DNA of 64,000 nt. Source: a bacterium (GTDB lineage: Bacteria > Verrucomicrobiota > Verrucomicrobiia > Verrucomicrobiales > Akkermansiaceae). The DNA is taken from positions 19,452-83,451 of the forward strand of contig JAAEZT010000001.1 of the NCBI GenBank assembly GCA_018222765.1, given 5' to 3'. Of this stretch, positions 11,097 to 62,578 are shown piece after piece; position 1 is the first letter of the stretch; each line of letters starts with the position of its first letter. Made by a program: the position numbers and the translations under genes. A model generated the notes under the pieces. It was not told the origin of the DNA and did not search any database. It saw only the letters and a program-made list of their open reading frames with translations.

Positions 11097-11103
11097 TCCA
11101 ACC

Positions 11104-13884
11104 ATGCCTCCGCTCGCAAACAGCTTCAGAAAGGCCGCAAAGACTCTCTTTGCCTCCTCTCTGGTCCTCCCGGCGGGCGCCGACGAAGGCATCAACTATT
11201 TCGAAACCCACATTCGCCCTCTCTTTGCGAAGCATTGTTACGAATGCCATTCCGCAGGCGCCAAGAAGCTCAAAGCCAATCTCTACCTTGACTCGCGGTC
11301 CGGTTGGAAAACCGGCGGTGACTCCGGCCCCGCTCTCGTCCCGGGAAAACCTGACGAATCGCTCATCATCGAGGTCACCTCCCATCAAAACAACGACCTC
11401 CAAATGCCGCCGGATGAAAAGCTCTCCGTCGATAAGATCGAAAAACTTCGCACCTGGATCACGATGGGAGCTCCGGATCCCCGCGAGGGAGTTGTCAAAA
11501 AATCGCGCTCTAAAATCGATCTCGAAAAAGGACGTCAATTCTGGGCCTTCAAACCACCGGCGGCTCATCCAACACCTGAGGTCAAAGACGCCACCTGGCC
11601 CCGAAACGACATCGATCGCTTCGTCCTCGCCCGCCTGGAATCCGAAAAACTCACTCCGACCAAGGACGCGAACCGCCAGACCCTAATTCGCCGGATTTAC
11701 TACGACCTCATCGGACTTCCACCATCACCCGAAGAAATAAAAAACTTCCTCGCCGACCAATCACCGAAAGCGTTCGAAAAGGTCGTTGATGACCTCCTGG
11801 CCCGTCCCGATTTTGGCGAACGATGGGGACGGCATTGGCTCGACGTGGCCCGCTTTGCCGAATCCAGCGGCGGCGGACGCAGCTTGGTCTTCCCTCACGC
11901 TTGGCGCTTTCGCGACTACATCATCAAATCCTTCAACGAAGACAAACCCTTCGACCAACTGGTCCGCGAGCATCTCGCCGGAGACCTCCTCCCCCACGAA
12001 TCGCCCGAACGACGGAACGAGCAATTGGTCGGCAGCGGCTATCTTGTCCTCGGACCGATGAATTACGAACTCCAGGACCAGGAACGCCTTCGCATGGAAT
12101 TCGTCGATGAACAAATAGACACCATGGGCCGCACCTTCCTTGGCATGACCCTCGGCTGCGCCCGATGCCACGATCATAAATTTGACCCTATCCCCACCAC
12201 CGACTACTACGCCCTCGCGGGAATTTTCCAGAGCACCGAATCAATGGGTCTTGGCAGCGCAGCCAGCGGAGTAAGCTCCGTCGCCACGGTTAAACTCGAA
12301 ACATCCAATCTGCCTGAGCTTAAAAAGCACCGTGCGGAACTCGCTTCCCTTCAAAAACAAATTGCGCAGCTAAAGAAGAAATCTTCCGGGAACTCCTACA
12401 CCCTTCCTGAAATCACTATCGACTCCGACAAAGCAAAACTGACCGGAGTATGGAAACCTTCAACCCACACCGCAAAATGGGTGGGTGAAAACTACCTCCA
12501 CGATGACAATCAGGGTAAAGGCGAAAAAGCCGCCGAATTCACCACCACTCTGCCCGAATCCCGTGACTACGAAGTTCTCATTTCATACTCCTCAGGCTCC
12601 GGAAGATCGAAGAAGGTTCCCGTGACAATCTTCCACGCCGAGGGTGAAACCACAATCCTTCTCGACCAAACCAAACCTCCCACCCATCACGAATCCTTCG
12701 CCAGCGTCGGCTCGTTTTCATTCACCAAAGATCAACCGGCCCGCATCGTTATTTCCAACAAAGGAACCACTTCTCATGTCATCGTCGATGCCGTCGGATT
12801 CCTTGGACCCGATACCGGCAAGAGGATCAAAAATCCAAAGGTCGACCGGACAGCCATCAACGCCAAGATCAAAGCCCTCGAGAAACAACGCAAGGATCTG
12901 GATTCCAAAATCAAGAATCTCGAACCAGTGACAATGGCTCCACGCGAATCGAAAAACCCAGCCGACGGCCACGTCCACATCCGGGGCCTCGTGCGAAAGA
13001 AAGGACCAAAAGTTCCCCGCGGATTTATTTCCGTCGCCACTGACCCCAGAGCCAAGCTCAAGATCTCGACCAAAAGCTCGGGCCGCCTGGAACTGGCCCA
13101 CTGGGTTGCCGACGCCAACAACCCACTGACTTCCCGGGTGATGGTCAATCGGATTTGGAAGCACCTCCTCGGAGAGGGACTCGTCCGTACGACCGACAAC
13201 TTCGGCCAGACCGGGGAACTCCCCAGCCACCCCAAGCTACTCGATCATCTTGCACTCAAGTTCACCAACAACAACTGGTCGGTCAAAACGATCATCCGCG
13301 AGATCGCCCTCAGCCGCACCTACCAACTTTCCTCGTTGTCTCAGTCCGACCAAGACGCCGAAAATCGTCTTCTGGCCCGCGCCAATCGTAAACGTCTCGA
13401 AGCAGAATGCATCCGCGACACCGCGCTCCTCGTGAGCGGAAAACTCGACCCCACCCGCAGCGGCCCCACCATCAAAAAAGCAGGGAAATACGATCTCAAC
13501 TACAAGTTCAACACCAGCCGCAAGAGTATTTACACACCTTGGTTCCGCAATTCCATGATTGATCTTTTCGAAGTCTTCGACGCGCCCAACCCGAATCTCG
13601 TCGTTGGAAAACGAACCACCTCAAATATCCCCACGCAGTCGCTTTTCCTCATGAACAGCCCCTTCATTCGGGAGCAATCAATCCTCACTGCCAAGCAACT
13701 CGTCAGCAAAGGAGCGCAGATTGAGGACGCTTATTTACTCCTCTTGGGACGTCTGCCTTCGACTTCCGAACAAGCCACCACTTCCGATTTTCTCTCCCAA
13801 TTCCCGCCGGACCAGCAAGAAGAAGCCTGGACCCAACTTTGCCAGACGCTTTTTTCCTGTGTTGATTTTCGATTTTTAGATTAG
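11104..13884 (+). CDS. PSD1 / DUF1549-DUF1553 planctomycete-type cytochrome c protein with internal golvesin-like module
   Basis: CYECHSAGAKK; WPRNDIDRFVLARLE; RWGRHWLDVARFAES; CARCHDHKFDPI; ADANNPLTSRVMVNRIWKHLLGEGLV; TPWFRNSMIDLFEVFDAPNPN. Confidence 0.93.
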   Translation: MPPLANSFRKAAKTLFASSLVLPAGADEGINYFETHIRPLFAKHCYECHSAGAKKLKANLYLDSRSGWKTGGDSGPALVPGKPDESLIIEVTSHQNNDLQMPPDEKLSVDKIEKLRTWITMGAPDPREGVVKKSRSKIDLEKGRQFWAFKPPAAHPTPEVKDATWPRNDIDRFVLARLESEKLTPTKDANRQTLIRRIYYDLIGLPPSPEEIKNFLADQSPKAFEKVVDDLLARPDFGERWGRHWLDVARFAESSGGGRSLVFPHAWRFRDYIIKSFNEDKPFDQLVREHLAGDLLPHESPERRNEQLVGSGYLVLGPMNYELQDQERLRMEFVDEQIDTMGRTFLGMTLGCARCHDHKFDPIPTTDYYALAGIFQSTESMGLGSAASGVSSVATVKLETSNLPELKKHRAELASLQKQIAQLKKKSSGNSYTLPEITIDSDKAKLTGVWKPSTHTAKWVGENYLHDDNQGKGEKAAEFTTTLPESRDYEVLISYSSGSGRSKKVPVTIFHAEGETTILLDQTKPPTHHESFASVGSFSFTKDQPARIVISNKGTTSHVIVDAVGFLGPDTGKRIKNPKVDRTAINAKIKALEKQRKDLDSKIKNLEPVTMAPRESKNPADGHVHIRGLVRKKGPKVPRGFISVATDPRAKLKISTKSSGRLELAHWVADANNPLTSRVMVNRIWKHLLGEGLVRTTDNFGQTGELPSHPKLLDHLALKFTNNNWSVKTIIREIALSRTYQLSSLSQSDQDAENRLLARANRKRLEAECIRDTALLVSGKLDPTRSGPTIKKAGKYDLNYKFNTSRKSIYTPWFRNSMIDLFEVFDAPNPNLVVGKRTTSNIPTQSLFLMNSPFIREQSILTAKQLVSKGAQIEDAYLLLLGRLPSTSEQATTSDFLSQFPPDQQEEAWTQLCQTLFSCVDFRFLD

Positions 13885-13898
13885 ACTCCCCTCAATCC

Positions 13899-15305
13899 AT
13901 GATGTGCCCGGATAGACGGCAATTCCTCAAAACCACCGGATGTGGTTTCGGTTCGTTGGCTCTCAATGCCATGCTCTCCGGCACTGCGCAGGGCACTTCC
14001 AACCCCCTCGCTCCGCAGCCTCCGCTTTTCCCCGCCCGCGCCAAGCGCATTATCTTTCTGTTCATGTCCGGCGGCCCCAGCCATGTCGACAGCTTCGACT
14101 ACAAACCGGACCTCATCAAAAGCGACGGCAAGGGTTTCGACTTCATCGGGGTCCGTAAAACCACCTTCGGAAAAAAGAGCGAGCGCAAACTCCTCAAGCC
14201 ACTTTGGGATTTCAAACAATACGGCGAATCCGGCCAGTGGGTCAGCGAGCTTTTCCCACACATCGGCAAACACGTCGACGACCTTTGCTTCATCCACTCG
14301 ATGCATACCGAGGGCGTCGCCCACGGCCCGTCGACACTTTTCCTGCACACCGGTGCAACCAACCTCGTTCGCCCCTCGATAGGCAGCTGGGTGACTTACG
14401 GACTCGGAACGGAAAACGAAAACCTCCCCGGTTTCGTCACCATCATGCCATCCTCCAGCAAAGGCGGACCGCGCAATTACTCGAACGCCTTCCTCCCCGC
14501 AATCCACCAGGGCACCTCGGTCGGACGGGCTGGACTCCCGGCTTCAGAAGCGACCATCCGTAACCTCAAAAACACCCACCTCCCCCACGACGTCCAAAAT
14601 CGTCAGTTCAATTTCCTGCAGGAACTTAACCGCCAGCAAGCCGGCATAAAATCCGATCACAATCTCGATGCAGCCATCGAATCATTTGATCTCGCCTTTC
14701 GTATGCAGATGAATGCTCCCGACATTCTCGATCTCTCAGACGAATCCAAGTCGACCACAGAGATGTATGGTATTGGAGAAAAATCCACTGATACTTACGG
14801 TCGGCAATGTCTCATGGCTCGCAGACTTGCCGAAAGCGGCGTGCGATTCATTCAGGTGAACTACGCTGATGAATCGGTGAACCCCAAGTGGGACCAACAT
14901 TCCAACATGCCCAAGCACAAGTTCCATGCCGAGGCTACCGATCAACCGGTCGCGGCTCTCCTACAAGACCTCAAACAACGCGGGCTTTTGGAAGACACCA
15001 TCGTCTGGTGGGGCGGCGAATTTGGCCGCACGCCATTCTCCCAGGGAAAGGACGGACGGGACCACAACCCCCGCGGCTTTACCACTTGGCTTGCTGGTGG
15101 CGGGACCAAGCCCGGCTACGCCCACGGAGCAACCGACGAGATCGGCCACGAAGCGGTCAGCGGCCGCCTGCACATGCACGACCTTCATGCCACCATGCTC
15201 CACCTTCTCGGCCTCGACCACGAACGCCTCACTTATAACTACGCCGGCCGCGACTTCCGCCTCACCGATGTATTTGGCAAGGTGGAATCCAAACTCTTTG
15301 CCTAA
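13899..15305 (+). CDS. DUF1501 domain-containing (sulfatase-like) protein
   Basis: RRQFLKTTGCGFGSLALNAML leader; FLFMSGGPSHVDSFDYKP; GGEFGRTPFSQGKDGRDHNPRGFT. Confidence 0.95.
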   Translation: MMCPDRRQFLKTTGCGFGSLALNAMLSGTAQGTSNPLAPQPPLFPARAKRIIFLFMSGGPSHVDSFDYKPDLIKSDGKGFDFIGVRKTTFGKKSERKLLKPLWDFKQYGESGQWVSELFPHIGKHVDDLCFIHSMHTEGVAHGPSTLFLHTGATNLVRPSIGSWVTYGLGTENENLPGFVTIMPSSSKGGPRNYSNAFLPAIHQGTSVGRAGLPASEATIRNLKNTHLPHDVQNRQFNFLQELNRQQAGIKSDHNLDAAIESFDLAFRMQMNAPDILDLSDESKSTTEMYGIGEKSTDTYGRQCLMARRLAESGVRFIQVNYADESVNPKWDQHSNMPKHKFHAEATDQPVAALLQDLKQRGLLEDTIVWWGGEFGRTPFSQGKDGRDHNPRGFTTWLAGGGTKPGYAHGATDEIGHEAVSGRLHMHDLHATMLHLLGLDHERLTYNYAGRDFRLTDVFGKVESKLFA

Positions 15306-48607: not shown

Positions 48608-49555
48608 ATGAATCATACTCGAAAGCTCATTTTCTTATTAATTTTCTTTCTTCCCAGCATTTCCAGCGGAATCGTAGTCGCTAATTATTCGAGTTCCGTA
48701 AACGACCGCTTTGAAAATGATCCTAGCTTCGTTGGAGCTGGCCTGGACTTTTCCGGAGTCGGAAGGACAACAAACGGCCGCTGGGTGACGATGATCGGTG
48801 ACAACTACTTCGTCACAGCCATCCATTTTCCCGCAACGGGAAATGTCCAATTCCTCGCAAACAATGATCCTTCGAGTACCATTTTCCAATACACAGTCGC
48901 AGGGAGCTTTAACGTTCCCGGCACCGATATTCAGATTGGCTATTTTAACGAAGCAGTCGACCCCTCCATTGCCCGTTACACCTACAACACAAACAATGCC
49001 AACTCCTTGGCCGATCTCGGAATAGCGGGAACTACCGTCTACACCAGCGGAGATCGCGTTGCGGGCTCCACAGGAACAATCCTGGACCACGTCGTAGCTG
49101 AAAATCAGGCTGAATCCTGGTTCGAGGAGGCTACGGACGTTATCCAAGTTCCTGGCCCCGGAGGAATCAATAACACCTTTAGCAATGATGCGGATTTCGA
49201 TCAGATCGTTATGTTTGAAAACATATCCACTGATGACGCCAACAATTTCGAAAATTCCGAATCCCAACTCCAAAGCGGAGATTCCGGCTCGCCACTTTTT
49301 TCAAATCAAGGAGGTTCCCTCAGAATAGAAGGTATTGCATGGGCTGTCGTCCCCTCCCCGGGATTTACCGGAAATTTCGATACTACCGCCAGTGGCTTAG
49401 AGCAAAGACCCGGAACACTTTATAGCTACCTTGGCTCCTACGACACCGCCATTCAAACTGTGATTTCCAACGTTCCGGCCCCGATTCCAGAGCCCTCGAT
49501 CCCTGCTCTGGGGATCCTCGGGCTGCTGGCAGGAATGGTATTTCGCAGGCGTTGA
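48608..49555 (+). CDS. Trypsin-like serine protease with PEP-CTERM-type sorting tail
   Basis: TAIHF (His), GTDIQIGYF (Asp), LQSGDSGSPLF (Ser); C-terminus PEPSIPALGILGLLAGMVFRRR. Confidence 0.8.
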   Translation: MNHTRKLIFLLIFFLPSISSGIVVANYSSSVNDRFENDPSFVGAGLDFSGVGRTTNGRWVTMIGDNYFVTAIHFPATGNVQFLANNDPSSTIFQYTVAGSFNVPGTDIQIGYFNEAVDPSIARYTYNTNNANSLADLGIAGTTVYTSGDRVAGSTGTILDHVVAENQAESWFEEATDVIQVPGPGGINNTFSNDADFDQIVMFENISTDDANNFENSESQLQSGDSGSPLFSNQGGSLRIEGIAWAVVPSPGFTGNFDTTASGLEQRPGTLYSYLGSYDTAIQTVISNVPAPIPEPSIPALGILGLLAGMVFRRR

Positions 49556-49623
49556 GAACTCGTTCATCTCAAACAGTCAATCTCTGTAGTCGGCAAATCA
49601 TTCGTTTCACGCTAGAAACCGGA

Positions 49624-51006
49624 ATGATGTCACTCCGACTCCTTTCCCTTCTTGCCTCCATTTTTCTAGTCGTTGCGCCTGCGAGCGCGGAAACACAGAT
49701 CAAAAACGTCCTCCTGATCGTTTCCGATGACCTCAAGGCCAGCTCGCTGGGTTGTTACGGAAACCCCATTTGCAAGACACCAAACCTCGACCGCCTCGCC
49801 AAGCGCGGCATGGTTTTCGAACGAACCTATTGCCAGGGAACCTGGTGTGCCCCTTCCCGCCTCTCGTTCATGCACAGCCGCTATGAAGGAAGCAAAGGAA
49901 AGAACATGGGCGAGCATTTCCGCGCAAACGGAATCCACTCCGCGCGGGTGGGCAAGATCTACCACATGCGCGTTCCCGGCGACATCATCGCAGGCACCGA
50001 TGGCAACGATATCCCCAGCACCTGGGATGAAAAATTCAACACCAAGGGCCAAGAGGCCCACACTCCCGGTGACTACGCCTGTCTCAACCTGAACATCTTC
50101 ACCAAAGAGCTCGAAGACCGGCAATCCACCCGGATGCCGCACCGCATGTTCGTCTCAGTGGAATACGAAGGCGATGGCTCCGACCAGCCCGACTGGCAGG
50201 CCGCCAATAAAACCATCGCCTTGCTCAAAGAGCACAAGGAGAAGCCCTTCTTCATCGCAACAGGATTTGTGCGCCCCCACTACCCCAGCGTGGCTCCGAC
50301 GCAGTACTTCCAGAAATATCCCTTCGACAAAATGCCCCTCCCTCACGTTCTCGAAGGTGATCTCAATGACATTCCCAACTCAGGACTTGGAAAAACCACC
50401 AGCCAGAAGAGCGGCATTGCGAAGTGGCCTTCCAACATTCAGCGCATGTGGTCGGCCTACTACGCCACGGTGACCTACATGGACGAGCAACTCGGCAAGG
50501 TCCTCGATGAACTCGACCGACTCAAGCTTACCGACTCCACCGCCATCGTCTTTATCAGCGACCATGGATACCATCTCGGCGAGCACCACTTCTGGCAGAA
50601 GAGCAACCTCCACGAAGAAGTCACCCGCGTCCCCATGATCATCTCAGCCCCGGGCATGAAGCCCGGCAGAACAAATTCCGTCACCGAACTCATGGATATT
50701 TATCCGACATTGAGCTCGCTTCTCGGCATCCCCACCCCTGAAAGCGTGCAGGGAAAAAACCTCGTTCCCGTTCTCAAAAATCCTGAGACCAAGATTCGCA
50801 AAGCAGCTCTCTCATTCAATCGTGGAGGTCACGGGCTCCGTACCGATCGCTGGGCCTACCTCCGCTACAAGAATGGCGATGATGAACTCTACGACATGGA
50901 GAAAGATCCCGAGCAATTTCACAATCTCGCGAAAAAGAAAGAATTCGCGGGAATTAGAAATGAGATGCAGTCCCTTCTCAAGAAACGCCTTAAAGACGCC
51001 AAGTAA
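49624..51006 (+). CDS. Sulfatase (iduronate-2-sulfatase-like)
   Basis: NVLLIVSDDLKASSLGCYG; CAPSRLSFMHSRYEG; ISDHGYHLGEHHFWQK; start at internal Met with signal peptide. Confidence 0.93.
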   Translation: MMSLRLLSLLASIFLVVAPASAETQIKNVLLIVSDDLKASSLGCYGNPICKTPNLDRLAKRGMVFERTYCQGTWCAPSRLSFMHSRYEGSKGKNMGEHFRANGIHSARVGKIYHMRVPGDIIAGTDGNDIPSTWDEKFNTKGQEAHTPGDYACLNLNIFTKELEDRQSTRMPHRMFVSVEYEGDGSDQPDWQAANKTIALLKEHKEKPFFIATGFVRPHYPSVAPTQYFQKYPFDKMPLPHVLEGDLNDIPNSGLGKTTSQKSGIAKWPSNIQRMWSAYYATVTYMDEQLGKVLDELDRLKLTDSTAIVFISDHGYHLGEHHFWQKSNLHEEVTRVPMIISAPGMKPGRTNSVTELMDIYPTLSSLLGIPTPESVQGKNLVPVLKNPETKIRKAALSFNRGGHGLRTDRWAYLRYKNGDDELYDMEKDPEQFHNLAKKKEFAGIRNEMQSLLKKRLKDAK

Positions 51007-51270: not shown

Positions 51271-53496
51271 TCAATCCGACTTCACGGTCAAACCACCTGT
51301 TTTTGACTCAACGACTCCCCCATCCGAGAAACGCACGGTGAGAGGCGTCTCCTCGAAGTTGTAAACGACGTAGGTTTTCTTCCCATCTTTCTTAAAGACA
51401 TTCACATAAGGATGATTAGCTGTGATCGAGGCATCATTCTGTCCGAAATGATCGAGGGTATTAAGCCAATGATACATAAAGGCGTGGGTGTTGCCTCCTT
51501 CGAGACTGCAGTCCGGAGTCGTATCGAGGTATTTTACTGCCGGAGCGGGGTCATTGAGCGCTCCAAACATCGCCACCAGGTCACCCCAGCCATTGTTGTA
51601 GTCTGCGCCCTTCTCCCGTTTCTCGACAATGCGGTCATGGTTCCTTTTTACGTAGTCCGGGAAACGCCCCATATAGATTGAAGCCGGAGTAAAGGGCAGC
51701 CAGTTGATCCCATGAATACAATCGATGTCTCCTGAAAACCAGGTCGCGAACGCACCCTTACCACCCCAGATCATACCGAGTGCAACATTGGGAAAATCCT
51801 TAGGGAAATTCGTTCCTGAAACGTCAAACCAATACTCTTCTACTGCGGTCCGCTCGGTATTGTAGAGATAAATCCCGAGATCTCTCGCCACATCGTCACC
51901 GGTAGCCTCGCCCCACAACATCATGCCATACCAGGCGTTCATTGATTCAGAGGAGGACTCCTGATTGTTCCCGTCACCAAACTTGGCATGGCCCGAGGCC
52001 CAGGAATGCCCGGCATAGATATCGAAGCACCGAAGATAGGGGAAAAGCGCATCATCTTTCTTTGGCGAGGCAATATCACGAATCAAGAGATTTACCATCG
52101 GCCCCCATTTCCTTGCCCATGCGGGATCGAGCCGGGCCACTTCGGCTGCGGCCCGGAGAAAATATCCGTAGTGAAAGTGATGATCATTCAATTGCGAATC
52201 ACTTCCATACGACGGTTTACTTCCAATGAGACTCCCCCAATTGGCATCGTAGTAGAACAGAGGAGCCTTTTCACCCGGGCTCGCAGTAAACCAGTTCTCA
52301 AGACGAGATTTTATTTCGTCCACGAATTGAGTTCGTAATTCATCTTCGCCAATGACTTCGGCAATCCCGCTCAAGGTGGCCAGCTTTCCGAGATGCTTTC
52401 CCTCCCAATAAGTATCGCCAAAGTCCGTTTTCTTTTTGGCCGCTTCAGCAGTCAAATAACCTTTCATCCTCACAAGATCGGGAATCCCCTCTTTTGGAAA
52501 CATCGGAAGCAGCCCCTGTATGGGAACTGCTGTTTCAAAAGAACTGCCCATCGCGACCTTCATTGCACCGCGCACCGATCGGTAACTCATCGAGGTCAAA
52601 GGCGCAGAGGTATACTTCCATTGGTGGGGATAAAGCGCTAAGATCGTCCCCTCGCCCTTGGCCTCCAATTTCTTTGTTTCGAGCTCATAAATGGACGAAA
52701 GAATGCCCTTTTCATGAAACGAACTCACCTTGGTCGTGACAACATGGTTGTGGGCACATTGGGCGAAGGCCCCAAGGGTGGCAGCTTCCTTGTCTGGCAG
52801 AAGCGCTACCGAGAAGTATCCCTTGGATCCCTCGTTTTCATAGACCGCCTCCTCTCCCAGCCATTTTGAGCCACTCGCGCCAAAAATTCCGTAGTGATTT
52901 CCCCGCACCGTGATTCCCAGGACATTCTCTCCCTGCTCTCCGGACCAAATGATCGGCTTGTGGGCAAAACGAATCACCGGATTGCCGCCACTGATTTTTC
53001 CATACACAAACGGGCTTCCATGACCGAAGGTCAGTTGCATCTTAGCTTCTCCCTCCTGCACTTCAGTGGTGATCATCCATGCGGAATATCCAGCCAAACG
53101 GGTTTCTGTAAATTTTTCGGAGGCAGAATGCCCAATGACAAAATCGCCTCCCTTGGACACACCCCCGCCCATGATATTTCCCGACCTCCCGTCGATTCCC
53201 GCTCCGGGATAAGTCACCGCCATCCCTCCTTCATGACACACCATCGCCAAAGGATGAGGGAAAAGGTTTTGCGAATGCTTCTCCCAAACCACTGAACTCC
53301 ACCATTGATTGGTCGGCGTTGCCCCCTTGAGCGATTTCACTTTATAAATCTCCCTGGGTAATGGCTCGCATCCCTCCGGACGTTGCGCAGTATAACTTCC
53401 CGGCCCAATCTTTATAAAATCATTCGCGTTTAGCCCCACAGGAGTTACCCCTAACAATCCAACAAGCCTGATGAGAACAATCATTCGCATGAGCAC
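51271..53496 (-). CDS. GH81-type endo-beta-1,3-glucanase, secreted
   Basis: TNQWWSSVVW; SDSQLNDHHFHYGYFLRAAAEVA; IYAGHSWASGHAKFGDGNNQESSSESMNAWYGMMLWG. Confidence 0.9.
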   Translation of the reverse strand: MLMRMIVLIRLVGLLGVTPVGLNANDFIKIGPGSYTAQRPEGCEPLPREIYKVKSLKGATPTNQWWSSVVWEKHSQNLFPHPLAMVCHEGGMAVTYPGAGIDGRSGNIMGGGVSKGGDFVIGHSASEKFTETRLAGYSAWMITTEVQEGEAKMQLTFGHGSPFVYGKISGGNPVIRFAHKPIIWSGEQGENVLGITVRGNHYGIFGASGSKWLGEEAVYENEGSKGYFSVALLPDKEAATLGAFAQCAHNHVVTTKVSSFHEKGILSSIYELETKKLEAKGEGTILALYPHQWKYTSAPLTSMSYRSVRGAMKVAMGSSFETAVPIQGLLPMFPKEGIPDLVRMKGYLTAEAAKKKTDFGDTYWEGKHLGKLATLSGIAEVIGEDELRTQFVDEIKSRLENWFTASPGEKAPLFYYDANWGSLIGSKPSYGSDSQLNDHHFHYGYFLRAAAEVARLDPAWARKWGPMVNLLIRDIASPKKDDALFPYLRCFDIYAGHSWASGHAKFGDGNNQESSSESMNAWYGMMLWGEATGDDVARDLGIYLYNTERTAVEEYWFDVSGTNFPKDFPNVALGMIWGGKGAFATWFSGDIDCIHGINWLPFTPASIYMGRFPDYVKRNHDRIVEKREKGADYNNGWGDLVAMFGALNDPAPAVKYLDTTPDCSLEGGNTHAFMYHWLNTLDHFGQNDASITANHPYVNVFKKDGKKTYVVYNFEETPLTVRFSDGGVVESKTGGLTVKSD

Positions 53497-53532
53497 TTCT
53501 ACGACTCACCACGGACGATTCAATCACTTTTG

Positions 53533-53552
53533 TTGCATTATTTTGCATTATT
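53533..53552. promoter_or_regulatory. Perfect 10-bp tandem duplication TTGCATTATT x2 in the GH81/lacI divergent promoter
   Basis: TTGCATTATTTTGCATTATT; reverse complement AATAATGCAAAATAATGCAA matches the motifs at 59561 and 59629. Confidence 0.6.
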
Positions 53553-53636
53553 GAACTCCTTATTCAGTTTCAAGTATGATCCCTTGATTCTTGCCATTCC
53601 AGTTCAATCAAGGCATCCATTGCCCACACAAAACGG

Positions 53637-54698
53637 ATGGCAGGAGTAAACCAACAAGAGATCGCGGATCATCTCGGACTTTCGAAAGCAACTGTATCGA
53701 GATGTTTCACCAATCACGCCGGCATCAGCGCCGTCACCCGCGCCAAGGTTTTCCAACTGGCCGCGGAGCTTGGCTACACTCACCTGGAGAGCCGCAGCAA
53801 AAAGGCTCAGAAAAAAGCCAAGAGGAACCCCACCAATTTTTCAGTCCTGATCTGCACCGATACGGACGAGTATTTTCGCGAGGACTACGAAAGCCCCGGA
53901 GAGCAGATCCTGGCCGGAGTCTCTGAGTATGCCCAACTCAACAACGCCCAGGTCGATGTGCATTTCATCCCACCCGATGTCAGCGGAATCGACGATCCAG
54001 CTCTCAGAAAAATCAAAGGCCTCAAGGACCGACAGTCCCGGGGAATCCTCCTAATCTACCCTTTTCCTTCCCCCATTATCGACGAACTTTCGGTGCGCTT
54101 TCCGCTTATCTCCCTGATAGACCAGGTTCAACAGCACAGCATCGACTGTGTCGACGTCGACCACTTCGACGGCATCTCCACCGTCGTAGACCATCTTGTC
54201 GAGCAAGGCCACGAACGAATCGGGTTTTACACCAGAGCCTATCCTGTCGACGCCAGTTGGTCCTTCCGACGCTACAGTGCCTTCCTTGAAAAAATGGCCC
54301 GCCTAAAACTCAAGGTAACTCAAAAGGACATCATTGGCATTCATCCCCGAGCTTTCTCCGATGTCGCCAAGGGAATCGAAGAAGCCGCTGAACGCACCCG
54401 CCAAGGTGTGACCGCCTGGGTGTGTGCAGCCGACCATCAGGCCTACGATCTCATCAACGACTTCAAAAAGCGCGGACTCAAGGCTCCCAAGGACGTCTCC
54501 GTCACCGGATTCGATGGTATCCAGCAACCCGGAGCCACCTCCTCGCTAACCACGATTAAAATCCCCTTCCGCTCCATCGGGATGACCGGAGCGGAACGAC
54601 TCGCCACCAGAATACGTAAACGCTTTGGCGAAAAACAACACATCTACATCGCCGGTGACCTCCGAGAGGGCAAATCAGTGGGACCTCCGAGAGCCTAG
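53637..54698 (+). CDS. LacI-family transcriptional regulator
   Basis: QEIADHLGLSKATVSRCFTNHAGISAVTRAKVFQLAAELGY HTH/hinge; periplasmic-binding-like C-terminal domain; VTGFDGI. Confidence 0.93.
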   Translation: MAGVNQQEIADHLGLSKATVSRCFTNHAGISAVTRAKVFQLAAELGYTHLESRSKKAQKKAKRNPTNFSVLICTDTDEYFREDYESPGEQILAGVSEYAQLNNAQVDVHFIPPDVSGIDDPALRKIKGLKDRQSRGILLIYPFPSPIIDELSVRFPLISLIDQVQQHSIDCVDVDHFDGISTVVDHLVEQGHERIGFYTRAYPVDASWSFRRYSAFLEKMARLKLKVTQKDIIGIHPRAFSDVAKGIEEAAERTRQGVTAWVCAADHQAYDLINDFKKRGLKAPKDVSVTGFDGIQQPGATSSLTTIKIPFRSIGMTGAERLATRIRKRFGEKQHIYIAGDLREGKSVGPPRA

Positions 54699-56074
54699 CT
54701 TGCCTTGCGTCGCGCTTCGAGCTCCTCGGCGATCTCGTCGACTTGATTATCAGTGAGGGGATACCAGAACAGCGCGATACCCGAGAGAATCGTTAGCACG
54801 CCGGGAAATACCGAGAACATAAGCAGGATTCCATTCGCAGAAGTTTCCGACTGTACTTCATTGGCAACATATCCGTAGTATGCCAGCAGGATTCCCACCA
54901 TCGAGCCGCCGACGGCGAGGCCAACTTTTTGAACAAACATCGCGATGGAAAAGGTCAACGCGGTAATTCGGCGACCAAACTTCCACTCTCCGTAATCAAC
55001 AACATCGGTATAGATCGCCCAGACCAGCACTGGCATCGGTCCAGCTACAAAGGCTGAAAAAATATTCAGCCAAAATACCGCTTCGAAGTTGCTCGCAGGG
55101 ACAAAATAAAAGGCAATCACCGAAAAGGCATTCAACATCGTCATTCCAATCAGGGCATTCCTCTTCCCAAAACGCTTCTTGAGTGGCTGGGTCATCAGAA
55201 TTCCGATCAACAAAGCGATCGGAGCTGTTGAATAGAAAATGGAAATTCGATCCAATCCCAGCATATAGGTGTCACTACTGTAATTGGCGATATACTTTAA
55301 ATACGGATAGGTAATTCCCCACCGCAATCCCGAAAATGTCAGGGTGATAAAAGCAACCACCAACATCACAACCAAGGGTCTGTTTTGAGCCAAAAATACG
55401 ACATCCTTCCCAAAATGTGACCGCTCTTCTTTGGGAGGGGTAATACGCTCCCGAGTGGTGGCGAAGGTATACAAAAATAAGATCGTCGCCATGGCCGCAA
55501 AAACCCCCATGGCAACCCGCCAGGCATCAGGATTATCCCGACCCCCGAATTTATAAAGCATCGGAAATAGAGCTAAACCGATGATCACCTGCGCGGAGAA
55601 AGCTCCTGCAAATCGAAATTTCGAGAGCGATGTCCGCTCTTCGGGATCCGAAGTAATGGTTCCCATCATAGCTGAATAAGGCACATTAATCGCGGTGTAG
55701 ACTGTCATCAGGGCGATATAAGTGACATACGCAAAAATCAGCTTTCCGGCAGGATCCAAATCCGGACCTAAAAATGTCAGGTATCCAATCAATCCATATG
55801 GGATCGCAATCCATAGCAAATATGGCCGGTATCTGCCAAATCGAGTCTTCGTGCGATCAGCCAATCCACCCATAAGAGGGTCAGAGATGGCATCCCAAAT
55901 TCGAGCCACCAAATACAAGGTGCCCACCGCAAGAGGATCCAAGCCCATCACGTCGGTAAAGTAGGTAATGAGAAACGCGTTCACGATGTGGAACACGAAG
56001 TTCGACGCGGTATCCCCGAGTCCGTAGCCGATTTTCTCTTTTACGGAGAGCTTGTTGGAAGATTGAGAAGTCAT
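54695..56074 (-). CDS. GPH-family (glycoside-pentoside-hexuronide) MFS symporter
   Basis: KEKIGYGLGDTASNFVFHIVNAFLITYFTDVMG; DPLMGGLADRTKTRFGRYRPYLLW; DVVDYGEWKFGRR. Confidence 0.92.
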   Translation of the reverse strand: MTSQSSNKLSVKEKIGYGLGDTASNFVFHIVNAFLITYFTDVMGLDPLAVGTLYLVARIWDAISDPLMGGLADRTKTRFGRYRPYLLWIAIPYGLIGYLTFLGPDLDPAGKLIFAYVTYIALMTVYTAINVPYSAMMGTITSDPEERTSLSKFRFAGAFSAQVIIGLALFPMLYKFGGRDNPDAWRVAMGVFAAMATILFLYTFATTRERITPPKEERSHFGKDVVFLAQNRPLVVMLVVAFITLTFSGLRWGITYPYLKYIANYSSDTYMLGLDRISIFYSTAPIALLIGILMTQPLKKRFGKRNALIGMTMLNAFSVIAFYFVPASNFEAVFWLNIFSAFVAGPMPVLVWAIYTDVVDYGEWKFGRRITALTFSIAMFVQKVGLAVGGSMVGILLAYYGYVANEVQSETSANGILLMFSVFPGVLTILSGIALFWYPLTDNQVDEIAEELEARRKAS

Positions 56075-56085
56075 ATTTTTTTAGG

Positions 56086-59000
56086 TTAGTAGATCAGCCA
56101 GCTTGCTGGCACTTGCACGTCGATGGATGAAATTTTACCAGAGCGGCTAAGGATTTCCGAACTTGTTTCGTAGTCTAGAATACCGTCGAACGCTTTTTCT
56201 TCGCCGGTGGAATATCGCACCCTCACGATTGCGGTATCAGCGCTTGTGTTGCGATGGTAGGTCACGGCTGTTCCCGCAAATGTAAACGAGATGACACCAG
56301 CCGGAATTGCTGCCTGATCGGGTCTGGCGTCAAGACCCTCAAATTCAGAATTCCTCAAAAGACGAGGCCGGAAAGCCAGCTGCCCCTCGATAAAGTCTAC
56401 GCCCAACTCACCGAGTCGGCACAAGATCCCCTCTTTCACCTGACCTGTCAAACCGGGCTGTTGCGCCCCGGCTTGACCAGAACTGTGGGAGTAGGGTTCG
56501 GCTGGGAAGGCACCGTATTGTCGGGGAGATTGACGATAGCCCAATCCGGCTTGCACTGAAAAGTAGGCCCCCGCAAATCGACGAAGTGTCTCGGCGTCCA
56601 CCCCTTCCTCCATAGCCTCAAGAGTCACTTCCTGGGCGGCGACCATCAGCTTGGAAACCATGTGCCAATAGACACATCCCAGGCCCTCGTATCCGAACAT
56701 CGAACCGCTTCGGCCGGTGAACATTTGATGCTGAAAGACACTTTCATAGAGCACTTCGATTTCGATTCGGTCTTCAGAAGAAAGTCCCTCAATGGCATTC
56801 ATCGCGTCAGTCAATTCGTAGCCATTTGTCAAGGAATGATGGAAACGATAACCTCCCTCCGGATCTCTCACCACGAGACGCTCATCTTCGTTCACGATCA
56901 TCTCAGCGAGCGCCTCCACCTTCGTCACCTGATCTTCGCCAAGGTGATTTATTTCCATGAATCGGGGCAACTCACGATCAGGATAAAGCAAATAGGTTGG
57001 ATGACGTTGTGAACGAAGGTCACTCGAAGGAAGGGCTTCAAGCAAAGCCAGGGACTCATCAGAATCAAGACATCCGGAACTCAAAATAGCAACCTGCCCT
57101 TCCAGCATTACCGGAAGACGACGGAGTCCCATCGTCTTTTCCTCACGCCCAATCTCAAGGACATTGTATGCATGCCACAGTCCATCCTTACGCTGATTGC
57201 TCTGCAAGACCTGCTCGATCGCACCCTGAGAATGATCCAGAAACTCTCGCACTGAATTCGCCGCATAGGACACCGGTTCCTGATCTTTCGGATGAACAAC
57301 CTCGTTACGATATTGCTCAAGGGCGAGGCCTACTTCCTCCACGAGAGAATAAACTCCCTCTTGGTTATTAAAATCCTGTTTCTGCCATCCCGCACCGGAA
57401 AAGGCTTTGCTCATCGCCTGAATCAAACGCACCAATGGGCGGGAAATGAAGAGTTCATCCGGGCTTCCTTCGCCCAGCAGATCCTTGAGAAATTTCACAT
57501 AGCGCATGAGGTATCCCGCAGTCACCACCGAAAGGCCACATCCTGCGAGAGCATTGTTGGCATCATTCCATTCGGGCTTCTGGGTATTCATCCAGACTCC
57601 ACCTCCGGGAACAAGGTTCGCCAGCTTTACGAGCGCCGGAATAAGAAGCTTTTCCGTCAAAGTCGCCCTCACCAATTCCCCCGATGAATTTCTCAGCAAA
57701 AGCCCATCGGCTCCGACTTTCTCTCTCAAGGCCATCAACTTGTGATGACGCTCGACATCGAACTCCACCGTGTCGCGTGGATCAGCCACGATGTTGGCCC
57801 AAGACTTCAGTCGATAAGGCACATCAGCAAAAACATAAGCCGGGGTATTCAAGCGCTCCGCCAATCGATCAGGTCGAATTTTGGCTTCCAGTTCGAGGAG
57901 CTTGAGCAAGTAAATGATCTGATGATCACCCCAATAACCAATCGAGACCCAGGGGTCATCCTCATCCGGGGCTTCCCAATCAATCCCCTTTGAAGTAATC
58001 CGGTACGGATTATATCCGTCGATCGTAGAGGCATTGAGAAACTTGGAGATGAACCCATCGACAAAATCGGGATAACTCCAGGCAAGGGCTTCCCAGTTTT
58101 GGAAGATGTCGCGCCAGTTCCCCTCAAAATGATGCACCGCTTCTCCCGCCTCATCCTTCACGCGGATATCAAAGCGGTTCCAAGGTCGGCTGGGGTCGCC
58201 ATGTCGACGACTCAACACGAGAGGCAAATATTCTTCTGCCAAACGAATCAAATCGGCATCACCTAGTGAAGAAGCCAGCTTCAACAACTGACTCCGCTCA
58301 AGCACATCGGGTAAGTCATTCAACGCTTCACCATGCAACTCGATCAACTTTCCATGATGCACTCCGAGGTAACTTAAAAACTGCTCTTTACGAAAGGTCG
58401 TTCCCTTCTCGGGAACACCTCCCCGCAGGACATTACAGAGAACATTGTAGTAGTGATAAAGCGCGGCATCCCGGTCGGCGGTTTGTTGAAAACCATCTGA
58501 AGAAGCCACAACCTCCCGTAAACTTTCACGCCCTTCCCGCAAATCAGATTCCAACCCCGCACACAAGTGATCGGGGTCCGCCAGACTCTGCCTTAGTTCC
58601 GCAATTTCGATCTGGGTCTGCTCAATCTCTGCCACCATCATCCACTCACGGGACTCGCCTGGCGCGAGAGTCAATTCATCCGCTAAAAACAAACCACCTC
58701 TCTTGGCACGCACCCGGTCAGGAGTCGCAGGAGACTTGCCCTGCAAAAACTTTTCGGCATCCCGACGACAGAGAAAGCGTTGCGCTTCCTCTAAACCCTG
58801 CGTCCACACCGTGGTGGCCCGGAGACACTCCAGAGGGATTGGCGCGTCTACAATCCCCGACGCCAATCGATGCACGAGTAAGCGCCCGTCGCATTCCAAT
58901 TCGCTCATCTTATAAGCATCGGCCAAGCAGCTGTATTCCAACTGCATCCGGCTATCGATACCGGACGGAAGAAAATTGTCCAAGCCATCAACGAGCTTCA

Positions 59001-59514
59001 TCGACCTTACTTCATCTCCTTCGTTGCTGATTTTGACTTTTCGAACAAAGCCGAAGCGATCCGAGAGCATCCAGCGATAACTCACGCGCAAGCCCAGATC
59101 CTCGTGAACCTCATCGAACATCAACTCATCGCCCAGAGCACTCTTCAAGAGACGTCGTTTGATCGGCGCCAATTGCGCAATCGAGGGACGAAAAGGATTC
59201 CAAAGCTGACCTTCGGTAGCAATCGCAGTCCAAGGTCCGGTGTTGTTCCAGTTATCGATAATCTTATCGACGGTGTAGTAGGGAAAGAGAGCCGACTCTG
59301 GCGAGCGCCTTCCTGCACAAGGGGCTCCATCACTACTACAGAAAAACCACTGCTCCCCTGCACTGACGATATTGAGAAAGAAAGGATCAAACGACTCCAT
59401 GCCGTCAATCACCACATATTCCCGCCCCGATTCCACAACCCACTGATTGGCAGCCGAAAAGTCTGCCTCGGGAACTATCTTGTCAGAAGATTTCATCTCT
59501 GTCGTCGTCATCAC
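56086..59514 (-). CDS. Large glycoside phosphorylase (GH94-like; probably GH149/GH161-type beta-1,3-glucan phosphorylase)
   Basis: 1142 aa; N-term FDPFFLNIVSAGEQWFFCSSDGAPCAGRRSPESALFPYYTVDKI; QKPEWNDANNALAGCGLSVVTAGYLMRYVKFLKDLL; FTGRSGSMFGYEGLGCVYWHMVSKL; locus context. Confidence 0.8.
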   Translation of the reverse strand: MMTTTEMKSSDKIVPEADFSAANQWVVESGREYVVIDGMESFDPFFLNIVSAGEQWFFCSSDGAPCAGRRSPESALFPYYTVDKIIDNWNNTGPWTAIATEGQLWNPFRPSIAQLAPIKRRLLKSALGDELMFDEVHEDLGLRVSYRWMLSDRFGFVRKVKISNEGDEVRSMKLVDGLDNFLPSGIDSRMQLEYSCLADAYKMSELECDGRLLVHRLASGIVDAPIPLECLRATTVWTQGLEEAQRFLCRRDAEKFLQGKSPATPDRVRAKRGGLFLADELTLAPGESREWMMVAEIEQTQIEIAELRQSLADPDHLCAGLESDLREGRESLREVVASSDGFQQTADRDAALYHYYNVLCNVLRGGVPEKGTTFRKEQFLSYLGVHHGKLIELHGEALNDLPDVLERSQLLKLASSLGDADLIRLAEEYLPLVLSRRHGDPSRPWNRFDIRVKDEAGEAVHHFEGNWRDIFQNWEALAWSYPDFVDGFISKFLNASTIDGYNPYRITSKGIDWEAPDEDDPWVSIGYWGDHQIIYLLKLLELEAKIRPDRLAERLNTPAYVFADVPYRLKSWANIVADPRDTVEFDVERHHKLMALREKVGADGLLLRNSSGELVRATLTEKLLIPALVKLANLVPGGGVWMNTQKPEWNDANNALAGCGLSVVTAGYLMRYVKFLKDLLGEGSPDELFISRPLVRLIQAMSKAFSGAGWQKQDFNNQEGVYSLVEEVGLALEQYRNEVVHPKDQEPVSYAANSVREFLDHSQGAIEQVLQSNQRKDGLWHAYNVLEIGREEKTMGLRRLPVMLEGQVAILSSGCLDSDESLALLEALPSSDLRSQRHPTYLLYPDRELPRFMEINHLGEDQVTKVEALAEMIVNEDERLVVRDPEGGYRFHHSLTNGYELTDAMNAIEGLSSEDRIEIEVLYESVFQHQMFTGRSGSMFGYEGLGCVYWHMVSKLMVAAQEVTLEAMEEGVDAETLRRFAGAYFSVQAGLGYRQSPRQYGAFPAEPYSHSSGQAGAQQPGLTGQVKEGILCRLGELGVDFIEGQLAFRPRLLRNSEFEGLDARPDQAAIPAGVISFTFAGTAVTYHRNTSADTAIVRVRYSTGEEKAFDGILDYETSSEILSRSGKISSIDVQVPASWLIY

Positions 59515-59560
59515 TCTTCACTTTACTTGAACCATCGGGACCAAAGGTCTCGCTGAAATC

Positions 59561-59577
59561 ATGTAACTTTATGCAAC
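59561..59577. promoter_or_regulatory. 10-bp-period repeat ATGTAAC-TTT-ATGCAAC upstream of the phosphorylase
   Basis: 6/7 direct repeat with period 10; 46-63 bp upstream of the phosphorylase ORF start at 59514. Confidence 0.5.
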
Positions 59578-59628
59578 AGTAGAGCGATGAGGCACAACGG
59601 CAAGCGCAAAACAGCCACTTGGACTTAT

Positions 59629-59646
59629 AATGCAATTTAATGCAAT
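59629..59646. promoter_or_regulatory. 10-bp-period repeat AATGCAAT-TT-AATGCAAT upstream of the CBM-like protein
   Basis: 8-bp perfect direct repeat, period 10; ends 58 bp upstream of the ATG at 59705. Confidence 0.6.
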
Positions 59647-59704
59647 AACCACTTGCAATGTTTCGAACATCGCGCAAGTTCCAACTCCAACTTATCAACG
59701 AACC

Positions 59705-61681
59705 ATGAAATATCTTATCTATCCGAACCTCATTCTCAGTCTTGGTCTCGGCGCCAAGGCCGACCTTTTCCCCAACGGGGATTTTGCCACTGGAAATGAC
59801 GGAACTTGGGAAGAAGCCTCAGGCGCAGGAACTTACGTCTACGACTACCCCGCCACCGGCGGAAACAACGATCAATACGGCGTCATCGACCACACCGCCA
59901 ATGACGGAGGATATGGAATCTGGGTGGCAAACGGCGGAGGCATTCTCACTTTGGCTTCTCTCGGACTCACCGCAGGAGAGTCTTACAACTTCACCCAAGA
60001 CATGATTCTGCTCGGTGGCGCCAATATTGGCGGCTTCAAGTTGGACTTCTTTAATGGACCCGACGGAGCAGGCTCAACCGGAGACATTCGTATCGACAAA
60101 ATCGGTGATGGTTCGACTTGGGAAACCTACACCTACGCCATCACCATTCCCAGCGGAGTGGACGGCATCAAGGCGGTTCCTCTTTGGGGGGTCGGTTCGG
60201 TTGTGGGCTACGACAATATCGGATTTGATCCAAACCCAATCGTCACCCTCCCCATCCCTAACAGCGACTTCGAGAGCGGATCAATAAGTTGGCTCGAACT
60301 CAAGGGGGGCGCAGCCACTTTTAGCTATCCTTCAATCGAAGGAAATCCCGACGGATACGGCCTTATTGAAAATGACACCAACTGGGCCATCTGGGTCGCC
60401 AATGGAGGCTCTCCCATCACCCTCGATGCCTTGGGCATCAATTCAGGCGACATCGTGACCTTCCAACAGGACATGAGAATTTTCTCAGGCGCCGATATCG
60501 GCACTCTTAAAATCGAGTTCCTCAACGGAGACACGTTCCTCAGTGACTCCGGCGAAGACCGCCCCGACATCATTGGTGATGGATCGTCCTGGGAAACCTA
60601 TTCCTTCCCGGTTACAATTCCTGACGATGCAGATCGCGTCAAAATCGTTCCTGTTGCCGGAGCCAACTCCTCGGTTGGTTTTGACAACATCACCTTCACC
60701 ACCAGCCCCCCTCCCCCGGCACCCGGTGAGTTGACCAGCCCTGAAATTGTCAATGGAACCATCGTCGAGTGGATCGCCAACGATGACCAAAAAATCCATC
60801 AACCCCAATTTTCCCGGGATGAAGTGACCTGGACCAACTTCGGAACACCCATCGTAGGTGACTCCGTGCAGGAAGCCTTCGACCCGAATGGCGCGCCATT
60901 CTATCGCGTCGTCGTTTCCGAACCCGTCGCCGGCGAAGCTCTGATTAACGGAGATTTGGAATTGAGCAACTTCGGCGATCCCGCCTGTGCAGACTCCTGG
61001 AACTGCGTCGGAAGTCAGGCAGCGACCTTGATCACCACCGATTCATTTGGAGGTTCAAACTCACTCCGTCTTGCGGTGCAAAACGATGGCGGCGGCGCTC
61101 CTCAAACTTCTGAGATTCAACAAAACATCATTGACGTCGGAGGATCCATCACTCCCGGAGAAACCTACAACTTCTCCTTCAGAGCAAAGCAGATTTCCAG
61201 CGGCGTCAGCTACGTGCAAAACTTCCGTGTCCAGTGGTTGGCTGCTGGAGGAGCAGAAGTTCCCGGCGCTGCTCCCTTTGTCCCCTTCTCTGGTGGCGAT
61301 GGCACTTGGGACGAGATTACCCAGCTAAATCTCGTTGCCCCGCCAACCGCGGAAACTGCCTTGATTCAGATCTTCGGAGCAACCGGCGCTATCGCCGGAG
61401 AAGAAGCCAAAGGCGAAGTCTTGATCGATGAGCTCACACTCGCTCCGGCATCAACCACTCCCGACACCTTCCTCACCACCACCCAGGCCCCTGGCATCGG
61501 TATTCAATTCCCGACCAAGGCTGGAGTGAATTATCGTGTGGAAGAATCCGAAGATCTGGAGGAATTCTTCCCTCTCGGAGCTCCTTTGGTCGGAAACGGT
61601 GAAAATGCCGCTATCGGTGAGGATGACATTCAGGCATCCAAGTATTACCGCGTCATCGAAAACGCCATCATTCCAGAGTAA
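59705..61681 (+). CDS. Secreted multi-domain carbohydrate-binding (CBM4/9-like) protein without a recognised catalytic domain
   Basis: Signal peptide MKYLIYPNLILSLGLGAKA; two similar beta-sandwich repeats (FPNGDFATGNDGTWEE..IWVANGGGILTL..YDNIGF and IPNSDFESGSISWLEL..IWVANGGSPITL..FDNITF) and a third CBM4/9-like domain (INGDLELSNFGD..ADSWNC..FSFRAKQ). Confidence 0.8.
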   Translation: MKYLIYPNLILSLGLGAKADLFPNGDFATGNDGTWEEASGAGTYVYDYPATGGNNDQYGVIDHTANDGGYGIWVANGGGILTLASLGLTAGESYNFTQDMILLGGANIGGFKLDFFNGPDGAGSTGDIRIDKIGDGSTWETYTYAITIPSGVDGIKAVPLWGVGSVVGYDNIGFDPNPIVTLPIPNSDFESGSISWLELKGGAATFSYPSIEGNPDGYGLIENDTNWAIWVANGGSPITLDALGINSGDIVTFQQDMRIFSGADIGTLKIEFLNGDTFLSDSGEDRPDIIGDGSSWETYSFPVTIPDDADRVKIVPVAGANSSVGFDNITFTTSPPPPAPGELTSPEIVNGTIVEWIANDDQKIHQPQFSRDEVTWTNFGTPIVGDSVQEAFDPNGAPFYRVVVSEPVAGEALINGDLELSNFGDPACADSWNCVGSQAATLITTDSFGGSNSLRLAVQNDGGGAPQTSEIQQNIIDVGGSITPGETYNFSFRAKQISSGVSYVQNFRVQWLAAGGAEVPGAAPFVPFSGGDGTWDEITQLNLVAPPTAETALIQIFGATGAIAGEEAKGEVLIDELTLAPASTTPDTFLTTTQAPGIGIQFPTKAGVNYRVEESEDLEEFFPLGAPLVGNGENAAIGEDDIQASKYYRVIENAIIPE

Positions 61682-61799
61682 ATTTTGGACTCGTGCAATT
61701 TAATGTAACTTTTCCCTTTCTCCCCAGCGATAAATTGATAAAAGGAGAGCCACACACGCAGAAAAGCCCGTAACGGTTTTCGCACACAACAACATCCAC

Positions 61800-61846: not shown

Positions 61847-62578
61847 TCAGCGACGCACCCACTTCGTCACCATCGACACGGTCCACTGAAACTTCCGCGC
61901 CGTTTCACGAATCAGAAAAGGCTCGTCCACCTTTCCGGCCAACTCGAACTTCTCCCCCAACTCCTTCTCCAGCCACTCAGCTGTCGAACCCGAAGGCCAA
62001 TTCTCCCTTGAGGTAAATTCCTCCAGCCAAGTGCACGGCGTCGCAAGAATCAACTCCCCACCTGGCTTCACCAAAGCCGATAGCCGCGAGAGAAATCGCC
62101 GTGGCTCGGGAAGACGGCACACCAAGTTCGCCGCATGCACCCGATCAAAGTCACCAAGGTCCTCTCGCAGTCCCATGGCATCCCCGACTTCAAAACCCAC
62201 TTTTCCTGGCGACACCCCCTCCGGCATCTTCACCTCTAGCGAAGTCACTTCCCCCGCCTCTTCCAATCGCTCGTAGCGAACCCTCTCACCCTTCCGAACT
62301 TTCTCAGCCGCCGCAATAAACGCCTTGGAAAAATCGATCCCTATCACCTCATCCGCACTCCGCGACATCTCCAAAGTCGAGCGCCCCACCGCACAACCCA
62401 CATCCAGAGCCCGCTTCACCCGTCCTTCGGAAAAATGCCCCACAGTTCGCACCGGAAAATCCAGCGCTTCTGCCGGACCTCCGGGCCAAGACAGGATTTC
62501 CTCCGCGCTTCCAAAGTGAAAAAGAAGATACTCTCCGACATATCGCCCCGATTCATAAACCTCGCTCATTGCCAGCAC
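61847..62578 (-). CDS. SAM methyltransferase resembling the OvoA C-terminal (4-mercaptohistidine N1-methyltransferase) domain
   Basis: VYESGRYVGEYLLFHFGSAEEILSW; ALDFPVRTV; ALDVGCAVGRSTLEMSR; NLVCRLPEPRRFLSRL; TPCTWLEEFTSRENW; PFLIRETARKFQWTVSMVTKW. Confidence 0.8.
   Translation of the reverse strand: MLAMSEVYESGRYVGEYLLFHFGSAEEILSWPGGPAEALDFPVRTVGHFSEGRVKRALDVGCAVGRSTLEMSRSADEVIGIDFSKAFIAAAEKVRKGERVRYERLEEAGEVTSLEVKMPEGVSPGKVGFEVGDAMGLREDLGDFDRVHAANLVCRLPEPRRFLSRLSALVKPGGELILATPCTWLEEFTSRENWPSGSTAEWLEKELGEKFELAGKVDEPFLIRETARKFQWTVSMVTKWVRR

Follow-up and report, generated by a model that had tools for sequence, protein, structure and literature searches.

The locus described here raises the question of how a bacterium might use a β-1,3-glucan with only a few contiguous genes, and of what switches those genes on. 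It lies in a window of 64,000 nucleotides (NCBI GenBank assembly GCA_018222765.1, contig JAAEZT010000001.1, positions 19,452 to 83,451 of the forward strand; window positions are used below) from a marine-type member of the Akkermansiaceae (Verrucomicrobiota), whose draft genome comprises 4.33 Mb in 87 contigs and is 97.8% complete. The locus encodes a GH81 endoglucanase, a LacI-family regulator, a GPH symporter, a glycoside phosphorylase and a secreted protein resembling a carbohydrate-binding module (CBM), and an earlier note, made from the letters of the DNA, had proposed these as a compact laminarin-type locus working by phosphorolysis. All five open reading frames (ORFs) are present and contiguous where that note placed them, and profile searches returned the families claimed, with a weak match for the CBM-like protein. 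What the note missed is the most informative feature of the locus, a 16-bp direct repeat, copies of which precede nearly all of these genes and through which the LacI-type regulator encoded here probably acts.

The repeat, TTRCAY-N4-TTRCAY, has a 10-bp period and recurs in the intergenic regions of the locus. An exact scan of the genome returned six matches, four of them within the 8.2-kb locus, and the reversed pattern, used as a control in the same scan, gave two. With matches placed at random, the chance of at least four of six falling inside 8.2 kb is about 2e-10, a figure that can only serve as a guide because these sites and others related to them were used to define the pattern. A further copy, with one mismatch, stands at the start of this genome's GH158 gene on another contig. 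As read from the sequence, the repeat overlaps plausible core promoters, for instance a TATAAT box beside the site we call O3, and this suggests that it acts through repression by occlusion.

Independent support for a putative operator is comparative. We assembled 115 non-duplicate GH149 loci, among which those from the same genus are related and not independent, and found the repeat in 23 of the 25 loci with a LacI orthologue as against 4 of the 90 without one (Fisher p 5e-18). For three of these last four, which are congeneric or of the Haloferula type, the LacI gene falls beyond the retrieved sequence or the contig is truncated. The spacing is strict, with 43 sites in LacI-positive loci having a spacer of 4, whereas the remaining spacers between 0 and 15 yield none to two each; inverted arrangements of the half-site and other spacings were considered as alternative forms and are not enriched there, with at most two sites each. 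Sites are not confined to the genus: further genera and families have them ahead of GH81, GH158 or GH149. In Haloferula sp. BvORR071, whose LacI orthologue is about 62% identical to that of the window and is encoded several kb from the GH149-GPH pair, sites are present upstream of both LacI and GH149. Separately, a locus from another Akkermansiaceae genus (L150) carries between GH149 and GH81 a 1169-residue ORF (10402-13911, minus strand) with no NCBIfam match and with an exact copy of the repeat in front of it (13956).

The link between the repeat and LacI is present in the sequences themselves, and from it we infer that the regulator binds the repeat. The protein has a LacI helix-turn-helix domain (PF00356, 4e-9) and a Peripla_BP_3 effector domain (2e-23) in Pfam, and its orthologues beside GH149 share 42-98% identity. 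The linker that follows its helix-turn-helix is unlike the canonical hinge; in a structure predicted from 14 sequences the mean predicted local distance difference test score (pLDDT) is 72 and that of the linker below 50, values that a flexible linker would explain but that neither prove one nor decide for or against a hinge helix. We lean towards the view that a LacI subfamily, represented in several families of Verrucomicrobiota, recognises a direct repeat of TTRCAY with strict spacing on one face of the helix, with a 10-bp period, instead of a palindrome, and so controls β-1,3-glucan use whether the partner is GH81 or GH158. The half-site is CytR-like but the protein is not CytR, scoring 74 bits to that equivalog against a cut-off of 436.

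By sequence, the 1142-residue phosphorylase is a GH149 β-1,3-glucan phosphorylase. Its score against NF058639, a curated NCBIfam equivalog with a cut-off of 1150 bits, is 1253 bits over residues 24-1135, and it matches the solved GH149 enzyme Pro_7066 (PDB 6hq6) with an E-value of 5e-255 and 853 bits. The WNDANN motif pointed out earlier was confirmed. The active site of Pro_7066 comprises a WND catalytic motif, an RD sugar-phosphate motif and a phosphate-site histidine (PMC6771811); their counterparts here are W649-N650-D651, R468-D469 and H951, all invariant among nine homologues. A best match to a GH94 subfamily, which the earlier note had named as grounds for giving up its interpretation, did not turn up: no Pfam GH94 match was found in the protein or genome-wide, and similarity to a cellobiose phosphorylase is marginal at about 50 bits. 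GH161 was likewise set aside, with 49 bits to the PDB GH161A enzyme against the 853 for GH149. In one of the other loci (L045, 6189-9556) GH149 appears as two overlapping ORFs, reflecting either a frameshift or an assembly error.

The assignment of the endoglucanase to GH81 was borne out over its full length, with both the C-terminal (PF17652, E 3.9e-70) and N-terminal (PF03639, 4e-8) domains recognised by Pfam and a phmmer match to PDB 6fop (E 1.8e-180) in which the motifs NDHHFHYGYF and NNQESSSESMNAW align. The earlier note had also claimed that GH16 and GH17 were missing. This holds for the locus, but two GH16 genes and one GH158 gene occur elsewhere in the genome; the GH158 gene, unlinked to the locus, encodes a secreted glucanase (contig C15, 17058-18359).

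From the gene families, the order of the operon, its conservation, and the repeat with its LacI association, we infer a model that covers how LacI binds and represses, what induces the locus, what the symporter carries and where the proteins reside, and that we consider probable as a whole: a single-regulator locus for β-1,3-glucan utilisation in which LacI represses through the direct repeat. Exported GH81 would cut the glucan outside the cytoplasm, aided by the secreted CBM-like protein and the distant GH158 glucanase. The resulting oligosaccharides would cross the outer membrane and be imported through the inner membrane by the GPH symporter, after which GH149 would use phosphate to release glucose-1-phosphate and a shortened chain, saving ATP. 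LacI would bind TTRCAY-N4-TTRCAY over the core promoters and so repress the GH149-GPH operon, GH81, the CBM-like gene and the distant GH158 gene, and probably itself, until released by an imported oligosaccharide, for which laminaribiose is our best guess. The route envisaged earlier, from extracellular or periplasmic GH81 cleavage through GPH import to cytoplasmic phosphorolysis, is thus supported by the families, by the layout of the operon, by conservation and by the GH149 protein, on which no signal peptide was seen; as a route of uptake it covers the inner membrane only, and its substrate label needs revision. Phosphorylases are reversible, and the GH149 enzyme of Euglena makes oligosaccharides from glucose and glucose-1-phosphate (PMC5827456), so GH149 could instead run synthetically here, building β-1,3-glucan from glucose-1-phosphate for storage or exopolysaccharide. 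We regard this as very improbable, given that the operon includes an importer and that two secreted endo-glucanases have the operators in common, which points to catabolism.

A number of observations weigh against the catabolic, LacI-controlled model and are taken together here. Operators of LacI-family proteins are normally palindromes, and direct repeats with the period of a helical turn are typical of response regulators. The repeat could, then, belong to another DNA-binding protein, such as a response regulator or global factor, with LacI binding elsewhere in a glucan locus that is itself genuine; the palindromic sites of the family include the GlyR3/CcpA-type site (PMC5483248). No conserved 14-bp palindrome with a central CG was found in the promoter regions. 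We judge another owner of the repeat to be unlikely. Genome-wide the motif is nearly confined to the locus and the GH158 gene, unlike the sites of a global factor; in several families it goes together with the LacI orthologue, and loci without that orthologue hardly ever have it; no further regulator gene is conserved at the locus; and CytR, a flexible member of the LacI family, uses direct repeats of a similar half-site (PMC3454398). Two LacI-positive loci (L033 and L156) nevertheless lack an exact site, and O4 has convergent genes on either side, an unexpected location for a promoter operator. GH81 is lacking in four loci of the genus and the CBM assignment is weak. No GH30 gene was detected in the draft genome, which may mean that branched laminarin is not fully used, and none of the five TonB-type receptors in the genome lies near the locus, the nearest on the same contig being more than 170 kb away.

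The missing GH30 bears directly on the substrate. Debranching of laminarin is doubtful because no GH30 was detected, and full use of branched laminarin is doubtful because, in addition, the single GH3 in the genome is short. The label "laminarin-type" was therefore too specific, and a linear β-1,3-glucan fits equally. Paramylon, callose, a curdlan-like glucan or fungal wall glucan, for example, could take the place of algal laminarin; this would change nothing but the substrate and is in accord with the model of LacI-controlled glucan use. β-1,3 chains are the target of both GH81 and GH149, and other Verrucomicrobiota loci do have GH30 beside GH149, but GH81 and GH158 would still cleave low-branched laminarin, and the assembly is only a draft. 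We hold a linear substrate to be a possibility worth keeping in mind, albeit a tentative one.

As regards transport, the symporter scores 384 bits to TIGR00792 (cut-off 231) and matches PF13347 with an E-value of 8e-89. Uptake by a symporter with no SusC/D, as proposed before, would explain passage of the inner membrane, in keeping with membership of the GPH family, and does not account for the outer one; no SusC/SusD-like pair was found among the ORFs of the locus, and no ABC transporter cassette adjoins GH149 there. The GPH gene has been replaced in place in two pairs of congeneric loci, L035/L036 (GH149 90% and LacI 88% identical, but GPH 56%) and L038/L040 (93%, 92% and 55%), with DNA identity falling across the GPH gene and the ends of the genes on either side.

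The arrangement of the locus is summarised in Table 1. The GH149 and GPH genes lie on the same strand with 11 bp between them and most likely form one operon, the GPH and LacI genes converge with a 4-bp overlap, and GH81/LacI and GH149/CBM-like gene are divergent pairs. The CBM-like gene had been placed at 59630-61681. The ATG at 59630, which ORF callers use, falls inside operator O3, and the start is likely to be the later one given in the table, from which a signal peptide would be read. The product is predicted to be secreted and has a single weak CBM_4_9 match (27.8 bits, cut-off 25.9, E 3.8e-6). No PDB sequence match was found for this protein. Its AlphaFold model shows serial β-sandwiches (pLDDT 71.5, with a low predicted template-modelling score of 0.33), and Foldseek returned many β-sandwich matches with low TM-scores, including the tandem CBM22 structure 4xup, which point to no specific ligand class. 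On this model it is a multi-domain β-sandwich protein, CBM4/9/22-like, and we presume that it binds glucan.

Table 1. Genes and candidate operators of the β-1,3-glucan locus (window positions).
Feature	Coordinates	Strand	Basis and remarks
GH81 endo-β-1,3-glucanase	51271..53496	-	PF17652 and PF03639, PDB 6fop; hydrophobic N-terminus (probable Sec signal)
Putative operator O1, TTGCATTATTTTGCAT	53533..53548	+	Exact pattern match; GH81/LacI divergent promoter region; position kept in genus loci
LacI-family regulator	53637..54698	+	PF00356 and Peripla_BP_3; non-canonical linker after helix-turn-helix
GPH (MFS_2) cation symporter	54695..56074	-	TIGR00792, PF13347; second gene of GH149-GPH operon
GH149 β-1,3-glucan phosphorylase	56086..59514	-	NF058639, PDB 6hq6; predicted cytoplasmic
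Putative operator O2, TTGCATAAAGTTACAT	59561..59576	-	Exact pattern match; over putative GH149 core promoter; near-identical in nearly all genus loci
Putative operator O3, TTGCATTAAATTGCAT	59630..59645	-	Exact pattern match; abuts TATAAT box before CBM-like gene
Secreted CBM-like protein, likely corrected start	59705..61681	+	CBM_4_9 weak match, AlphaFold model, Foldseek
Putative operator O4, TTACATTAAATTGCAC	61693..61708	-	Exact pattern match; past CBM-like gene; also in L028 at 12732

Three neighbouring genes may be mentioned. A secreted sulfatase (49552-51006) is convergent with GH81 and adjoins it in many congeneric loci; β-1,3-glucans are not usually sulfated. The gene at 48608-49555 encodes another secreted protein, part of which weakly resembles S6 peptidases and whose C-terminus is PEP-CTERM-like. 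On the other side, a methyltransferase gene (61847-62578) is syntenic with the locus genus-wide and 68-74% identical in its more distant members, and is possibly a mere neighbour.

GH149 occurs in roughly three of every four genomes of the genus; elsewhere in the family, few genera have it. Throughout the genus the LacI and GPH-GH149 block is syntenic, and GH81 adjoins it in 14 of the 18 genus loci whose contig reaches far enough; the CBM-like gene is more variable in its presence than the block. Within a sample of 388 genomes from the phylum, six, this one included, have GH149 and GH81 no more than about 13 kb apart. A survey of gene neighbourhoods in other Verrucomicrobiota, as the earlier note had advised, showed that the LacI-GPH-GH149 core recurs, with GH158 or GH81 as its partner: in other families it is mainly joined by GH158, sometimes by GH30, and less often by GH81. 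Together with the genus loci that lack it, this removes GH81 as a constant partner. Of the 80 top-scoring GH149 loci across all phyla, only one, again a congeneric locus, had a homologue of the window's GH81. Because the GH81 partner is rare outside the genus loci, the gene layout is, judged by its neighbourhoods, a lineage-specific variant of known GH149 loci.

Such a compact, conserved β-1,3-glucan locus lacking SusC/D, with its 16-bp signature, provides a handle for finding similar loci, and the signature lets unlinked genes such as GH158 be assigned to the same regulon. Marine Verrucomicrobiota have been described as fucose and rhamnose specialists, and a bloom study reported no laminarin polysaccharide utilisation locus (PUL) in its Verrucomicrobiota metagenome-assembled genomes (PMC8857213). 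The locus offers a way to test β-glucan sensing and uptake in this phylum.

The earlier note did not recognise this minimal layout as described, yet GH149 beside an inner-membrane MFS_2 transporter (PF13347) was published in 2018 as the Type II clusters of Alteromonadales (PMC5827456), in a paper that makes no mention of GH81. Those clusters resemble the present locus in combining GH149 and MFS_2 with further β-glucan hydrolases; they differ in having a TonB-dependent receptor, GH16, GH17 and a histidine kinase/response regulator, whereas here MFS_2 is accompanied by GH81, LacI and the CBM-like protein, and no TonB-dependent receptor with GH16 and GH17 stands beside GH149. The Type I clusters of Proteobacteria share the pairing of GH149 with a LacI (or AraC) regulator but rely for uptake on an ABC transporter and its binding protein, with no extracellular glucanase (PMC5827456). 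Laminarin PULs of Bacteroidota (Formosa, Muricauda; PMC6246565, PMC13188888) likewise bring together a laminarinase, an MFS transporter and often GH149, but unlike this locus include a TonB receptor, a SusD-like protein, GH16, GH30 and GH17, the last also occurring as a fusion with the MFS transporter.

For the regulator, a precedent for the inducer signal is GlyR3 of Clostridium thermocellum, a LacI-family repressor of a β-1,3-glucanase operon that is released by laminaribiose; its operator, however, resembles CcpA sites in being nearly palindromic around a central CG, unlike the repeat seen here, and its gene cluster has neither the GH149 nor the GPH gene present here (PMC5483248). CytR of E. 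coli offers a closer parallel for the site, with an octamer half-site, GTTRCATT, that resembles TTRCAY, a tolerance of direct repeats and a flexible interdomain linker, but its sites are weak, variably spaced, mostly inverted and assisted by CRP (PMC3454398), whereas the spacer of 4 is strict here. If LacI does bind the direct repeat, this would be a further clear exception to the palindrome rule after CytR, with a much stronger motif than that of CytR. Whilst the neighbourhood of GH149 and MFS_2 was already known, what is new in this locus is its regulation, in which a putative direct-repeat operator is tied to a LacI-family regulator.

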